DNA from: Haloterrigena turkmenica DSM 5511
GTDB taxonomy: Archaea; Halobacteriota; Halobacteria; Halobacteriales; Natrialbaceae
Assembly: GCF_000025325.1 (NCBI RefSeq)
Contig: NC_013743.1
Location: 62,001 to 126,000, forward strand
Direction: 5' to 3'
Length of the DNA: 64,000 bases
Numbering within the stretch: the stretch's first letter is position 1; each line of letters opens with the position of its first letter. A program made the position numbers and the translations under genes. Below are positions 4,695-21,427 of this stretch, in pieces. Under the pieces are notes generated by a model that did no database searches, was not told the DNA's origin, and saw only the letters and a list, made by a program, of their open reading frames with translations.

Positions 4695-5651
4695 TTACTC
4701 CGGCGTCGCCCCTTCGATCCGGATCTCACCTTGCATCGTGTTCTGATGTGGCTCACAGGCGTAGACGGCCATCTCCGCGCTGGCCTCGAACGTGAGGAAC
4801 TGATCGCTGGGCTCTTCCTCGCTAGTCAACTCCGTCGAGAGGCCGTCAACGACTTCGTTGTCGTCGTTTCGAATCTCGATATTGTGCACGGTGCCGTCGC
4901 CCTCGGTCCAGCCGAGTTCGTACGATTCGCCGTCCTCGAGGACGAACGTCGGATTCGGCAGGCCCTCGACGGACGCCGGTGTGATCCCTTCCCACTCGAT
5001 GGTTTGTGCGCGGAACTCGACTCGCGTCCCCGGCTCGATCCGGACCTCCTGACCCGCCGCCGACCCCTCGTCGTCGGACTCGTCCGACCCGCGGTCGACG
5101 GGCGTCTCAATGACGATGTCGCCGCGCATCGTGCTCTCGTGGGGGGTGCACACGTAGGCGGCCATCTCCTCGGTGGCCTCGAACTCGAGCCACTGCTCCT
5201 CGCCGGGCTCCTGGGTCACGGGCGTCGAGAGATCGTCGATGACATCGTCGCGGGCGTCGCGGATTTCGATGTTGTGTCCGAGGCCGTCACCCTCCATCCA
5301 GCCGAGGCGGTACGTTCGGCCCGCCTCGAGCGGGAGGGTCGGGTTCACGTCGCCCTCGATTCCGGCCGGCTCGAGGGCCCGCCAGCCGTCGAGTTCGCCG
5401 CGAAGTTCGATCTCGAGCGGCGCCGCTTCCGCATCGTCGTCGGCCGCCTCGTCACCGTTAGACTGTCCCTCGTCGTCGGTCTCGTCCGGCTCCGATCCCT
5501 GCTCGTCGGACGGTTGCGAGTCCGCGTCGGAGGAGTCGTCCGGATCGTCGACGCTGCTCTCGTCGATACAGCCGGCGAGTGCGGCGGTCGCTGTCGCGAG
5601 CCCGGCGGCTCGAACCACGGTCCGGCGAGTCAGCCGGTCGGAATTGGACAT
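4695..5651 (-). CDS. Halocyanin-like lipoprotein with two blue-copper (cupredoxin) domains
   Basis: 318 residues. A Tat signal (RLTRRTVV) and lipobox LAGC (Cys28) anchor it outside the membrane, followed by an acidic linker (about 30-78). Domain 1 (about 78-185) has the ligand set H126, C168, H171, M175. Domain 2 (about 200-312) has H256, C299, H302, M306. Both use the CxxHxxxM loop of type-1 copper sites, so both can probably bind copper and carry electrons at the cell surface. The next gene is a one-domain paralogue, pointing to domain duplication. The ATG is placed by the signal peptide and by a TATA box at 5669-5679. Confidence 0.88.
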   Translation of the reverse strand: MSNSDRLTRRTVVRAAGLATATAALAGCIDESSVDDPDDSSDADSQPSDEQGSEPDETDDEGQSNGDEAADDDAEAAPLEIELRGELDGWRALEPAGIEGDVNPTLPLEAGRTYRLGWMEGDGLGHNIEIRDARDDVIDDLSTPVTQEPGEEQWLEFEATEEMAAYVCTPHESTMRGDIVIETPVDRGSDESDDEGSAAGQEVRIEPGTRVEFRAQTIEWEGITPASVEGLPNPTFVLEDGESYELGWTEGDGTVHNIEIRNDDNEVVDGLSTELTSEEEPSDQFLTFEASAEMAVYACEPHQNTMQGEIRIEGATPE

Positions 5652-5668
5652 ATTCTCACTACTGTCAC

Positions 5669-5679
5669 GCGATAAAAAG
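5669..5679 (-). promoter_or_regulatory. TATA box of the two-domain halocyanin gene
   Basis: On the minus strand this reads CTTTTTATCGC, centred about 23-25 nt before the ATG at 5651. That fits a leaderless or nearly leaderless transcript. Confidence 0.45.
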
Positions 5680-5867
5680 TTCTTCCTATCGATCAGGTTG
5701 CGTACGTCGTTCCGGTCGTCCGCGCGGCGTCGCCGCACTGCTTGCGTTTCGATCGAGACGGAAGTCACTCGTCGTCGAAAAACCGCAAAACGAGGGAATC
5801 GGGACGGACAAATCGGGAGAAAGCGCGATTCCGTTCGGCGTCGAACTACGACGAACGCCGTCCGTCG

Positions 5868-6452
5868 TTACTCTTCGGACTCGTTGCCGGATTCGTTGCC
5901 CTCGGACATGTTGCCTTCGGACTCGTTGCCGGATTCGTTGCCCTCGGACTCGTTACCGTTGCCACCGCCGTTGCTGCCTTCGACCTGCAGCTCGCCGACC
6001 ATGTTCGACGAGTGGGGCTTGCAGACGTACTCAGTCATCTCACTACTGGCGGTGAACTCGAGCATCTGATCGCTGGGCTCCTCCTCGTCGGTCTGCTCGG
6101 TCGCGAGATCGTTGACGACCTCGCCGCTGTCGTCTCGAATCTCGATGTTGTGTCCGGAGCCGTCGCCCTGCGTCCAGCCGATCTCGTACGTTTCGCCGGC
6201 CTGGAGGATGAGCGTCGGGTTCGACTCGCCCTCGATGTCGCTCGGGGCGATACCGGTCCACTCGGTCGTGGCGGCTTCGAGTTCGACCGTCGTATCGGGC
6301 TCGATCTCGTACCCGTCGCTGCTGCCGTTTCCGTTGCCGTTCTCGTCGCCGTTGCCGCTGCCGCCGCCACAGCCGGCAACCATCGTGGCCGCTGCCGTCG
6401 CGCCTGTAAGCTTCAACGCCGTCCGCCGTGAGATTGGGTTATCTCGTGCCAT
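5868..6452 (-). CDS. Halocyanin-like lipoprotein, single blue-copper domain
   Basis: 194 residues. It has a Tat motif SRRTALKL, lipobox VAGC (Cys28), a Gly/Asn/Glu linker, and one cupredoxin domain (about 48-158) with ligands H101, C144, H147 and M151. The C terminus (about 161-194) is low-complexity Gly/Asn/Glu/Ser built from repeated ESEGN/ESGN units. It is a close paralogue of the two-domain gene downstream, and the two are separated by 216 nt with the downstream gene carrying its own TATA box. It probably carries electrons at the outer membrane face. ATG 6450-6452 is preferred over the adjacent GTG. Confidence 0.88.
   Translation of the reverse strand: MARDNPISRRTALKLTGATAAATMVAGCGGGSGNGDENGNGNGSSDGYEIEPDTTVELEAATTEWTGIAPSDIEGESNPTLILQAGETYEIGWTQGDGSGHNIEIRDDSGEVVNDLATEQTDEEEPSDQMLEFTASSEMTEYVCKPHSSNMVGELQVEGSNGGGNGNESEGNESGNESEGNMSEGNESGNESEE
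5872..5955. repeat. Tandem codon repeats in the halocyanin tail
   Basis: Near-identical units containing GTTGCCGGATTCGTTGCCCT recur here, encoding the ESEGN/ESGNESEGN tail. Such a tract could vary in length by slippage. It is inside the coding frame and is not a CRISPR array. Confidence 0.7.
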
Positions 6453-6473
6453 CACTACGGGATTAGGATTGAG

Positions 6474-16205: not shown

Positions 16206-16354
16206 ACTCCTCGAGGAGCCGAGTCGCTCGAGAGGCCGTCGCCGACTCGAGCGGGTGTCGTGCCGCGTCGCCGACCGCTCACGCGTGGTACTCGAGAGGG
16301 AAGGTCCGGATGCGCGGACGGGATCGGAGGCGCCGTCTCCGAAGTGGACGGCGA

Positions 16355-17272: not shown

Positions 17273-17827
17273 TCACTCCTCGTCGACGCGACGGGCGGTC
17301 ACCCGAAACAGGTTCAGTCGCGTGCTGAACACCTGCGCGTCGGCGACGAGTTTGTACGTCGTGCCCGTCTCGAGGGGCTCGCGCGCGAAGAGGTGGGTCG
17401 CGGTCCCGACCGCCCCGCCCTCGAGCCTCGAGCGAGCGACGTAACCGGTGTACTCGTCGGGTTGCGTGAGGACGGGAACCGTTCCGCCGTCGGGCGGGCG
17501 AAGGAGTCGGACGACGGTCGTCGCCGGAAGCCGGTCGACGACTCGAACGGTCAATCCCGGCCGATAGTCGTCGAGCGATACCAGCACGAGCTGGCCTTCC
17601 TCCGACTGCGCGTCCACTTCCGCGGACTCGTCCTCGGCGTCGGGGGGCGCGGCCTCGAGCGAGGCCGACGACCCGACGATGACGATACTGGCGGCACCCA
17701 CCCGTCGCTTCGATGCGTTATTCGACGACTCGCCCGTCGCGGCGGACGAGCCGTTCGGCTGCTTCGATCGCTGGTTGGCTGTCATGTGCGGTGGGGCATT
17801 CGCGGTCTCTGTCGGTAATTCTTTCAT
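17273..17827 (-). CDS. Third of three tandem paralogues, unknown beta-rich protein
   Basis: 184 residues from ATG 17825-17827. A later ATG at 17783-17785 is the alternative. After a polar N terminus with a possible weak export signal (KRRVGAASIVIVGSS), the last 110 residues parallel the two upstream genes: a QLVLVSLDDYRPG strand, TTVVRLLRP, QPDEYTGYVARSRLEGG, a LFAREPLETG segment, and STRLNLFRV at the end. The shared frame is 'strand - TTVxIL - QPDEYxGxxxRY - FLFxR - LNL'. Function unknown. It lies about 115 nt downstream of its neighbour. Confidence 0.75.
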   Translation of the reverse strand: MKELPTETANAPPHMTANQRSKQPNGSSAATGESSNNASKRRVGAASIVIVGSSASLEAAPPDAEDESAEVDAQSEEGQLVLVSLDDYRPGLTVRVVDRLPATTVVRLLRPPDGGTVPVLTQPDEYTGYVARSRLEGGAVGTATHLFAREPLETGTTYKLVADAQVFSTRLNLFRVTARRVDEE

Positions 17828-17941
17828 CGGCGTCGATCTGGGCGCAGTTACGTCTTCGAACCGCCGCTGGTAGGTGATCGCCTCGAGACTCGTAGACGAA
17901 CTCACCGACCGTAACGCGATCAAAAATAAGCGACGAATTCG

Positions 17942-18268
17942 CTACTCGACGTCGGTCGAGAGGAGGTTCAGTGTCGGACTGAACATCGTCGCTTCTTCGC
18001 CGAGTGTTCCGGTTTCGCCGGTACTGATGCTCCCGTTGCGGATGAACACGAGGGTCGTGGGACTCACCGGACCGCCGTCGACCTGGTACCGCACGACGTG
18101 GCCGACGTACTCGTCCGGTTGCGAGATCTCGGGGACGGTCTCCTCCTCGGCGGTCTGGAGGATTTGCACCGTCGTGCTCGTCTCGAGTTGCGAGAGGACC
18201 TCGAAGTCCTCTCCGGCCTCGTAATCGTACGTGAAGACCAGTATTTGGCCTGGGTCGTCTTGCACCAT
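17942..18268 (-). CDS. Second of three tandem paralogues, lacks a signal peptide
   Basis: 108 residues: only the core domain of the family, from MVQDDPGQILVFTYDY to PTLNLLSTDVE. The motifs STTVQILQ, QPDEYVGHVVRYQVDGG and LVFIRNG line up with the flanking genes. The ATG follows the upstream stop by two bases, so the pair must be translated from one transcript. Unlike the first gene it has no export signal, suggesting a cytoplasmic version of an exported protein, or dependence on the partner. Confidence 0.85.
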   Translation of the reverse strand: MVQDDPGQILVFTYDYEAGEDFEVLSQLETSTTVQILQTAEEETVPEISQPDEYVGHVVRYQVDGGPVSPTTLVFIRNGSISTGETGTLGEEATMFSPTLNLLSTDVE

Positions 18269-18270
18269 TG

Positions 18271-18816
18271 TCAGTCACCTCCCATATCGGCGACCGTCTC
18301 GTTGCCGGTCGTCTCGTTGCCGGTCGTCTCGTTCTCTTCGACGGTGTCTTCCTCTTCGACGGTGTCTTCCTCTTCGACGGTGTCTCCACTGCTGCCCAGC
18401 GCCGTGCCGATGAGGTTCAGATCCGAACTCAGTACCGAGGCGTCCTCACCCATCGTCCCGCTGTCACCGGCGCTCAGGCTCTGGCCACGCACGAACAGGA
18501 ACGTCGTGATCCCCGCCTGCTCGCCGATGTCGTACCGGATGATGTGGCCGGACCACTCGTCGGGCTGCGAGATCTCCGAAACGGTCTCCCCATCTACCTG
18601 CAGAATCTCGACGGTCGTGCTCGTCTGCAGCGGCGCGATGACGTCGAAATTTCCGCCAGGATAGTAGTTGTTCGCAAAGACCGCTACTTGGTCTGCCTGT
18701 GCGCTGACTGTGGCCGTCCCGAAGGCGCCCGTTCCGAGCGTAAGCGCACCCGTCGCGAGGGCACCCTTCGCCATGAACGACCGCCTCGAGTCGCCTGTCG
18801 TGTCTTGTTCACTCAT
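18271..18816 (-). CDS. First of three tandem paralogues, Tat-exported
   Basis: 181 residues. A Tat signal (DSRRSFMAKG, then a hydrophobic run ending VSA near 40) precedes the core domain (AVFANNYYPGG ... STTVEIL ... QPDEWSGHIIRYDI ... FLFVRGQ ... SDLNLIG). A repetitive acidic tail ends the protein (VEEEDT and NETTG units). The 108-aa paralogue follows with a 2-nt gap. The domain is short, beta-rich and of no family I recognise. It is probably anchored or displayed outside the cell. Confidence 0.85.
   Translation of the reverse strand: MSEQDTTGDSRRSFMAKGALATGALTLGTGAFGTATVSAQADQVAVFANNYYPGGNFDVIAPLQTSTTVEILQVDGETVSEISQPDEWSGHIIRYDIGEQAGITTFLFVRGQSLSAGDSGTMGEDASVLSSDLNLIGTALGSSGDTVEEEDTVEEEDTVEENETTGNETTGNETVADMGGD
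18297..18385. repeat. In-frame tandem repeats in the exported paralogue
   Basis: Two adjacent repeat types occur: a 15-bp unit GTCTCGTTGCCGGTC (about 2.5 copies) and an 18-bp unit containing TTCGACGGTGTCTTCCTC (about 3 copies). Both unit lengths are multiples of three, so copy changes would alter tail length without a frameshift. Confidence 0.8.
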
Positions 18817-19525
18817 TTTGCTCTCACGCCCTCGTGGGCGATCCATCCTTGACCGAGTTGCCAGATAAACGCCGTCGACCGTTCCTTCTAGTATCCATCA
18901 ATTTAATATGAGTAGCAGTATTCGGTGGTTGTTTCGACAGTATCTGATAATCTGGCACGTCTAACGCTATTGTTCGTGTGACGAGTCGAAGATCTAAAGA
19001 CGAGTTTTGGTCCGACCTGTCGGATAGCTGAATCTGGTTGGCGCGAGTGACCATCGCACTGGACGAGCAAACAGGTGATTGCGTCGTTCGTTCGAGGAAA
19101 GAGTTACTGCGCGGGTGACGGCCTAGCGAATGGATGCAGGCACGGTGAAACGTGTGATCAACGGTCTTCTACGCGCCGAAATACGGCGATATCCGGCGAT
19201 CGATCTCGTAACGGTTCGCGTCTCGAGCGAGACCGCTCGGTCGGATCGATCCGATCTTGTCGGCCACCGAACAAACACCGACGCGCGTTCGCGACTGTAA
19301 CGAAAACCGTCACCTTCCGACCGAACAGTTCTGTTTCACCGATCCGCATCCCAGCCGGATCGTCCGGTATCTCGACAGACGAGCGATGAGTGGATCGGCC
19401 GAGAGCCGGTACGGACCGGTCGCCGAGTCGTTCGCGATTAGCGTTCGGCCGGGACGGTGCAATCAGGCGCTGCGTTTCGAACGGTAGCATCCTTTATCCA
19501 GCCGGTCGTCTAACTGCGCCGGAGC
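18817..19525. other. 709-nt gap without a convincing gene
   Basis: The first about 200 nt are relatively AT-rich and contain a GATAAACG box (18866-18873, minus-strand TTTATC), probably the promoter of the three-paralogue operon with a leader of about 25 nt. Frames up to about 110 codons exist on both strands (18824-19054, 19075-19389, 19158-19490). They are rich in Arg and Ser and lack acidic haloarchaeal composition, so I treat them as non-coding. The right end holds the promoter of the 19526 gene. Confidence 0.5.
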
Positions 19526-21427
19526 ATGGTACTGAATAGCAATGGCAACCGAACGCTCCCGCGAGGCGTGTCTCGCCGACGATTCGTGGCGACGGCGGCC
19601 GGCAGCGCGGGGCTGCTGTCGATCGCCGGGACCTCGTCGGCCCAGGACGACGACGGCGGGTTCTCCGACGCTCGACTCGTTTCGACTCGGGATTTCGACG
19701 CCGCGACGATCCAGACGCTCTACACCTATCGGAAGCGGCGCGCACTCGAGGTGCTCCTCTCCGACCCCGAGGTCCACGCGGTCGCCGAGGACATGCGCTC
19801 GAGTTACGAGGCGTACGATCCGTACACGAACTCCCTCGACGCGGTCAGCGTGCAGGGCAGTCCGGACGTCGAAATCGAGGGCGATCTCGACGAGGGGGTG
19901 TTCGACGTTACGGCTGTCGACAGACAGATCGCGTACGGACTCGTCGATCGCCGGACCGACTCCCTCGCCGCGCTGACTATCACCGACCCGCAGGACGTCT
20001 CGTGGCGGGCTTGGGAGGTTGGCGACGCGGGACTCGAGGAAGCGCGACTCCGACGGGTCTTCGAAGACGCCCGCGTACAGGAGTACGTGGACGGCAACGA
20101 CTGGTTTCCGTCGCTGCCGATCGCCGAATCGATCACGGCGACCGGGGAGATCGAACGCGGTGGCGTGATCCCGGTCGCCCTGTTCGTCGACGAGGGCGAA
20201 GCGATCACCGCCGTGGTCGTCGATCTCGACGTGCGGAACGACGACGTCGGTTCGGTGAGTGACGTGACGCGGGTCGAACGGTTCGTCGAGGTTCCGCCGC
20301 ACGAACTGGCGGCGACCATCGTGCCGGCGGACGACACCGTCCTCGGAACCGTCCCGGCGGTCCCGCTCGAGCGGCGACCGTGGTACACCGCGGTCGACGG
20401 CGGCCACCGGATCGAGGAACCGCCGGAGCCGTTCGATCGGGCCGGGTGGCGAATCGGGTGGGACGACTCGGGCAACCATGGCGTCGAGATCGCCGCCGAG
20501 TTCCGGGATCGCCCGGTGTTCGCGAGCCTCGGTTCACCCGCGACCCTCAGCGGCTACGGCCTCCCGGAACGCGACGGCGAGAACACGCTGGAGTGGTTCT
20601 TTCCGGACGACGAATTCGCCTTCAGTGGCGACTTACTGGTCTGGGACGTCCATAGCGCCGCGCTCGGCGGACCGGGGCTGCTCGGCGTCGTGACGTATCC
20701 CGCAGGCGCGGATCGACCGGCCGGATTCCGGTTCAGATCCCACTATCAGACCGGCGCTCGCGGCGCCGAGGGTCGAGACCACCGCTCCGGCTACCGGTTC
20801 GGGCAGTCCAGTCACGAACTCGCCACCGAGTTCTGGAACGACGGGACGATCGTTCCGATCTGGCGCCGCCAGGGCCCGGGGTTCGTGACCGACTATGCGT
20901 CCACGAGAACTGACAGCGTGTTTGCAGACGCCGAAACGGATCTCGAGACCGATCCGGACACCGGCACCGACGGGGACGCGAGCGAGAACGGCGTTCCCCA
21001 TCACTCGATCGCGACGGTCGCGATGGACGTCACCCCCGGAACGATCGACGGCGTCGAGATCGCACGCTACGACGGCGACGAGTGGACGACGCCGGAAACG
21101 GAGTTCTATCTGGTCGGCGAGCCCGGTACGGCCGTCCGGTTTTCCAACCCCGAGGGCCCGGAAACGATCGGCGTTCCGCTCGAAGACGGGATGGAGGTCG
21201 TCGTCGTTCGCCGGAGCGCCGGGGAAGTCCCGGGCGCCCAGCGACTCGCGGATCGAGGGATCGAAACCGCGTTCGTCCATCCGGCGCAGTACATCGGCGA
21301 CGAACCGATCCAGGGCGAACGCGTCGTCGCCTGGCTCCTGTTGGAGGCCGCGACGGGGCGACTCCCCCATCCGACCGGGTCCACGTCCTTCGAAACCCAG
21401 GCGACGATGCGACTGTCCGGCTACTGA
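19526..21427 (+). CDS. Large Tat-exported protein of unknown function
   Basis: 633 residues. VSRRRFVATAAGSAG (15-29) with a cleavage-like TSSAQD marks Tat export, and there is no lipobox. The mature protein is mostly beta-rich. An acidic linker (DAETDLETDPDTGTDGDASE, about 470-490) splits a large N-terminal part from a C-terminal module (about 495-633) with HPAQYIGDEPIQGERVVAWLL. Stretches such as EFWNDGTIVPIWRRQGPG faintly recall copper-amine-oxidase-like folds, but no NYDY cofactor motif is present, so I assign no function. Confidence 0.75.
   Translation: MVLNSNGNRTLPRGVSRRRFVATAAGSAGLLSIAGTSSAQDDDGGFSDARLVSTRDFDAATIQTLYTYRKRRALEVLLSDPEVHAVAEDMRSSYEAYDPYTNSLDAVSVQGSPDVEIEGDLDEGVFDVTAVDRQIAYGLVDRRTDSLAALTITDPQDVSWRAWEVGDAGLEEARLRRVFEDARVQEYVDGNDWFPSLPIAESITATGEIERGGVIPVALFVDEGEAITAVVVDLDVRNDDVGSVSDVTRVERFVEVPPHELAATIVPADDTVLGTVPAVPLERRPWYTAVDGGHRIEEPPEPFDRAGWRIGWDDSGNHGVEIAAEFRDRPVFASLGSPATLSGYGLPERDGENTLEWFFPDDEFAFSGDLLVWDVHSAALGGPGLLGVVTYPAGADRPAGFRFRSHYQTGARGAEGRDHRSGYRFGQSSHELATEFWNDGTIVPIWRRQGPGFVTDYASTRTDSVFADAETDLETDPDTGTDGDASENGVPHHSIATVAMDVTPGTIDGVEIARYDGDEWTTPETEFYLVGEPGTAVRFSNPEGPETIGVPLEDGMEVVVVRRSAGEVPGAQRLADRGIETAFVHPAQYIGDEPIQGERVVAWLLLEAATGRLPHPTGSTSFETQATMRLSGY

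Follow-up and report, generated by a model that had tools for sequence, protein, structure and literature searches.

We analyzed a stretch of 64,000 nucleotides of the Haloterrigena turkmenica DSM 5511 genome (hereafter the window), whose minus strand encodes, from position 18816 to 17273, one domain of ~95 residues three times, in the genes named here A, B, and C (Table 1). The domain of A is 48.9% identical to that of B over 94 aligned residues and 37.6% identical to that of C over 93, and B and C share 38.5% over 96. With pairwise domain alignments scoring 13 to 22 standard deviations above shuffled sequence, the original prediction was right in describing three tandem paralogs; the motifs that it gave for all three proteins are present in A and B and weaker in C (TTVVRLL, QPDEYTGYVARS, HLFAR, and LNL).

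The start of A at ATG 18816 is backed by a leader conserved among relatives. Its N terminus has the twin-arginine motif, hydrophobic core, and cleavage site of a Tat substrate (DSRRSFMAKGALATGALTLG..VSAQ), with the canonical DSRRSFMAKG, and a signal score of 93.7, against a 99th percentile of -1.5 for shuffled sequence, confirms the Tat signal first proposed for this protein. B had been described as a bare domain starting 2 nt past the stop codon of A, and the coordinates agree; it begins ~8 residues before the domain, leaving no room for a Tat signal of its own, and none was found. The two genes adjoin, the sole promoter of the module type described below lies upstream of A, and the signal is on A, with none on B. 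The long open reading frame of C opens at TTG 17923; relatives, which begin MTAERS.. or MTADWR.., favor ATG 17785, most likely the true start, which would give a protein of 170 residues. The long polar N terminus previously noted in C is present and holds a vestigial hydrophobic segment. In the window, C shows KRR ahead of this hydrophobic stretch, its orthologs have no conserved RR, and its relatives read KAR, QR, KR, or RK there or have no such segment; one C-like protein (L038) retains RRSFLNYDALAASAL.

Table 1. Features of the A-B-C locus in window coordinates
Feature	Position	Strand	Description
Candidate promoter element	18865..18885	-	GGAACGGTCG-N6-TTTAT; common to family; sole exact match of the pattern in the genome
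Candidate leader hairpin	18827..18840	-	CGCCC-ACGA-GGGCG; 10 nt ahead of the A start codon
Gene A	18271..18816	-	181 aa; Tat signal, family domain, and acidic, sequon-rich tail
Tat signal peptide of A	18700..18816	-	DSRRSFMAKGALATGALTLGTG...VSA/Q; twin arginine at residues 11-12
Family domain of A	18403..18687	-	HMM search, alignments
Low-complexity tail of A	18274..18402	-	Three NET sequons and repeats
Gene B	17942..18268	-	108 aa; bare domain without signal or tail; coupled to A
Gene C	17273..17785	-	170 aa from ATG 17785 (probable start); domain 17297-17587
Vestigial signal-like segment of C	17651..17710	-	Hydrophobic, KRRVGAASIVIVGSSASLEA

Neither Pfam and NCBIfam (at family cut-offs) nor PHROGs (by E value) gave a significant match for A, B, or C, and no significant relative of the domain was found among PDB sequences, so that the description as an unrecognized family holds. 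A fourth copy was not found in the whole genome (5,440,782 bases, 7 contigs). Relatives were detected by a single-sequence search in 69 of 125 genomes of the taxonomic family of the window, and of 391 genomes of the class searched with a profile, 65 matched, 58 from that family and seven from one other family of the order. The domain was found only in haloarchaea, where two families carry it, the Natrialbaceae and another one (Haladaptataceae in the named records); the names in these records are Natrinema, Halovivax, Halopiger, Haloterrigena, Saliphagus, Natribaculum, Halomicrococcus, and Haladaptatus. A phage or virus origin was ruled out, with no relative in 50,697 phage records and none confirmed among viral contigs, and the domain had no viral fold match with an E value of ≤0.001. 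In the Haladaptatus records (L084, L086-L099, and L101-L104) the family is expanded, with several scattered copies per genome, some of them on plasmids. Some members are labeled “calcium-binding protein” in public plasmid records, where the basis of the label is not visible; they belong to the same family, yet no Pfam or NCBIfam model matches A, B, or C of the window.

For comparison, we used the regions around most of the listed matches, leaving out those in three genomes (G145, G235, and G253) and some unlisted matches. The 246 members found there were reduced to 217 by removing nine repeated loci and three exact duplicates, and these span 82 genome labels, some of which may be the same or near-same species.

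Structure prediction for a Saliphagus A-type domain (pLDDT 88.7, pTM 0.80) gave eS28, ribosomal L2, and EutN/CsoS4B as best structural matches in VIA-align, with Z up to 4.9, which is below the safe threshold; the model of B (pLDDT 74.5) had similar weak matches. We assign most of these hits to the OB or small-barrel class, which is suggestive of a small OB-like beta barrel as the predicted fold of the family. The family resembles such small barrels (eS28, ribosomal L2, and the EutN/CsoS4B pentamers) in its structural matches but has no sequence relation to them, and the Tat signals are a feature of its own. The tails of 24 A proteins contain 33 N-x-S/T sequons spread over 15 of the 24, a count inflated by tandem repeats (shuffled tails: mean, 12.8; maximum, 22), and the 24 A domains contain none, a pattern that fits, without proving, an extracellular and glycosylated tail.

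Far from never occurring together, the homologs recur in the order A-B(-C) at 24 loci, all with an A-B pair and 18 with C as a third member, and the A and B reading frames overlap or abut. The phylogenetic tree places 21 A rows in one clade and 21 B rows in another, each with a support of 100/99. The remaining three pairs, at two Saliphagus loci and in G099 (L072, L073, and L164), form a group in which the A and B domains are each other’s nearest relatives. A single origin of all B rows was rejected (p-AU 0.021); the bare copy has thus either originated twice or been subject to gene conversion with A, and the closeness of the two domains in this group suggests one or the other. For 141 locus pairs, the median dN/dS was 0.26 for A, 0.32 for B, and 0.33 for C, and each of the three genes is under purifying selection. 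Recent or decaying duplicates were ruled out by the separate clades and the low dN/dS, and the clades, the recurrent order, and the selection support the earlier idea of a working set, not leftover duplicates. Between-locus distances, uncorrected for tree shape, correlated at 0.79 for A-B, 0.37 for A-C, and 0.56 for B-C over 16 loci, and at 0.86, 0.57, and 0.70, respectively, over all 18. A, B, and C are, in sum, old and selected paralogs of one haloarchaeal domain family, co-oriented, with A and B closely coupled. At one Haloterrigena salina locus (L070:16311-17638) A is missing, C is intact, and B is truncated and runs into a divergently oriented gene for a Tat protein, suggesting a deletion or an assembly error; this genome has an A-B pair elsewhere.

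We scored a Tat-like signal in every member with both arginine columns omitted from the score, and classed members by the state of the twin arginine (RR). By the final score L084_6328 has no signal; L045_8070 and L048_9159 (RRSS) were counted as RR, as was L116_6713 by an offset rule, and L123_4961 was counted as broken, though KRR occurs a few residues further on. Tandem sets nearly always pair a copy with an intact Tat signal with a copy without one: among 65 clusters, 56 have both an intact-RR and a non-RR member, eight have only RR members, and one, the L070 cluster near 16311, has none. The predicted arrangement of one exported and one non-exported copy, first noted in the window, therefore extends well beyond it. 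Label shuffles gave a mean of 39.8 mixed clusters and a maximum of 54 in 10,000; where all members retain a signal-like segment, 22 of 30 clusters are mixed (shuffle mean, 15.2; 22 reached in 16 of 10,000), although related clusters are not independent and these shuffle figures overstate the certainty. The better argument is the repeated change of the RR state, 17 times on the tree and at least nine on well-supported branches, as losses or regains. Single, non-clustered members are mostly RR (52/58). An RR member occurs in all 82 genome labels and a non-RR member as well in 55; the other 27 have RR copies alone. One clade (L049, L052, L121, L123, L125, L145, and L169) shows the opposite distribution, with RR present in the tail-less copy and lost from the tailed one.

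The broken signals read RQ, RH, KG, KR, TR, RD, RY, SD, SG, QR, ST, ER, EQ, and others. We compared 27 tail-less partners that retain a signal and share a cluster with a tailed RR copy; the twin arginine is broken in 19 of them and intact in eight. The first R is kept in 16, the second in 13, F in eight, M in one, and A17 in 15, whereas conservation is higher at S6 (21), G11 (22), A14 (25), and G21 (24). What these partners have lost is thus mainly Tat-specific residues, and a large part of the hydrophobic core and cleavage site is retained. The cleavage-like AxAQ is found in 91% of 23 broken-RR signals versus 55% of 129 RR signals, and the median hydropathy of the h-region (KD) is 1.29 versus 1.22 (Mann-Whitney p 0.002, with rows that are not independent).

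The sequence upstream of A belongs to a module that in relatives reads GAAACRNTCG, ~6 nt, TTAT, a short C-run/G-run hairpin, GTGAGAG, and then ATG. It precedes RR copies as well as those broken-RR copies that have transcripts of their own. From its TTAT box, we infer the roles of promoter and leader. Of 157 upstream regions, 110 contain the promoter motif (shuffles: mean, 6) and 111 a strong hairpin (shuffles: mean, 35). A sequence model of the module, built from 59 of these regions, was searched against 31 genomes with 150 first-look candidates scored per genome, so that other weak copies could be missed. Eleven matches had E <1e-8; by position all of them lie at family loci, and many had been used to train the model. 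They are followed by three matches (E 0.005-0.009) that cover the promoter half only. Promoter and hairpin leader together thus appear nearly family-specific. The promoter half also precedes a Tat-exported cupredoxin-type gene in the window’s genome and in G024, and the G025 match is near-identical sequence (L183, L195, and L196), hinting at a small shared regulon. Some clusters have no module, for instance L055, L163, and the first pair of L070. Covariation of the hairpin is marginal (own arms, 4.53; permuted arms, mean 4.29 and maximum 4.58 of 2000), most of the pairing is explained by the conserved C-run and G-run, and no known RNA family was found in the leader at the Rfam gathering score. 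Passages of a Haloferax study give 72% of protein-coding transcripts as leaderless and describe translational control via structured leaders as not typical (PMC4983044), and for these reasons a shared promoter and hairpin leader would be unusual among haloarchaea.

Apart from the family members themselves, the genomic neighborhoods checked contain mainly housekeeping genes plus one Tat protein. This Tat-signal protein of 633 aa (window 19526-21427, plus strand) has no Pfam match, is divergent from the trio, and has homologs within 10 comparison loci. Further away on the minus strand, neighboring genes at 4695-5768 and 5868-6455 have plastocyanin/azurin-type copper-binding domains (Pfam PF00127).

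The Tat pathway exports proteins already folded. Co-export through Tat with the signal on one subunit is described for HybOC and PaoABC in sections of PMC4273604 and proposed, in part of PMC8301774, for haloarchaeal NarGH, where the Tat motif is on NarG only; in Haloferax, twin arginines are described as essential for Tat export in a portion of PMC2945643. Likewise, A has a Tat signal and its partner B has none, but here the signal-bearing and signal-less members are paralogs of one small domain without recognized cofactors, RR loss recurred many times, and co-export is a prediction only. None of the matches listed in a literature search, which covered family names non-exhaustively, joins haloarchaea with Tat co-translocation or hitchhiking.

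The explanation that we tentatively place first is Tat hitchhiker export, in which A would carry B, and perhaps C, out of the cell as a folded complex of paralogs. B would be translated directly after A, fold, pair with A in the cytoplasm via the common OB-like domain, and pass the Tat translocon on the signal of A, whose acidic, probably glycosylated tail would end up outside; C would be a further, weaker passenger or an intracellular member. Other lineages may have reached the same arrangement by destroying the twin arginine of the tail-less copy (in one clade, of the tailed copy), often retaining co-regulation through the duplicated promoter and leader. We favor this reading because RR and non-RR copies are mixed in most clusters, including those in which every member retains a signal-like segment; because an RR copy is present in every genome label and a non-RR copy as well in 55; and because the RR state changed so often, with tail-less partners that lose R, F, and M yet keep S6, G11, A14, and G21. 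The 24 A-B pairs with overlapping or abutting frames, the dN/dS of ca. 0.3 in all three genes, the A-B distance correlation, higher than A-C and B-C, the same promoter and leader before broken-RR copies with their own transcripts, the sequons enriched in A tails, and the co-export precedents point the same way. The exported multimer suggested earlier would fit the pattern in an indirect manner, through the A-B coupling, the RR copy found in every genome label that has a non-RR copy, and the A-B distance correlation. Because no catalytic-looking residues are conserved, we think it more likely that the putative complex is a structural or ligand-binding surface or secreted protein than an enzyme.

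Several observations speak against hitchhiker export. Eight clusters have only RR copies and one has none, and the 27 genome labels with RR copies alone indicate that the RR protein needs no partner. Some co-occurrence is to be expected in any case, given that non-RR copies derive from RR copies. The higher frequency of AxAQ in broken-RR copies would also fit rerouting through Sec, window C has an RR absent from its orthologs, and the A-B correlation is uncorrected for tree shape, with clade members that are not independent.

Cytoplasmic roles of the sister copies come second in our ranking, as a rather unlikely alternative: only A would work outside, and B and C would stay in the cytoplasm, where they might help A to fold, inhibit or regulate it, or serve in self-protection. 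The missing signal of B and the degenerate one of C agree with such a split, and in Haladaptataceae signal-less C-like copies follow RR copies (L084, L086, L091, L096, L157, and L158), so that an intracellular role could be old; the predicted OB-like fold would suit nucleic-acid or protein binding. Against it, the many genome labels that have only RR copies argue that A requires no cytoplasmic partner, and the persistence of the hydrophobic core and cleavage site in broken-RR copies would be odd for a cytoplasmic protein. A very improbable reading is a built-in secretion monitor, in which unexported OB-like copies, or unexported precursor, would bind the leader hairpin of the family and stop translation when export lags, the intracellular sensor having evolved through erasing the export tag of a duplicate.

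Ranked third, and improbable in our judgment, is rerouting, in which copies without the twin arginine but with an otherwise preserved signal would pass unfolded through Sec, with B and C as separate cases. This would entail two export routes, and it agrees with the selective loss of R, R, F, and M, the retained core and AxAQ, and the slightly more hydrophobic h-region of broken signals. These h-regions are still weakly hydrophobic and Ala/Gly-rich, however, and rerouting cannot hold for B, given its complete lack of a signal. We place last, with similarly little credence, ordinary subfunctionalized and non-interacting duplicates at an ancestral locus in which each signal loss marks an independent new role, since, although C is the most diverged with a variable N terminus and the neighbors are mostly unrelated housekeeping genes, the mixed state is recurrent, adjacency and coupling are persistent, and promoter and leader are shared.

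If A does carry its paralogs through Tat, as hitchhiker export proposes, signal-bearing and passenger subunits would have arisen repeatedly from one gene, and the family would offer many natural replicates for testing the evolution of Tat hitchhiking.
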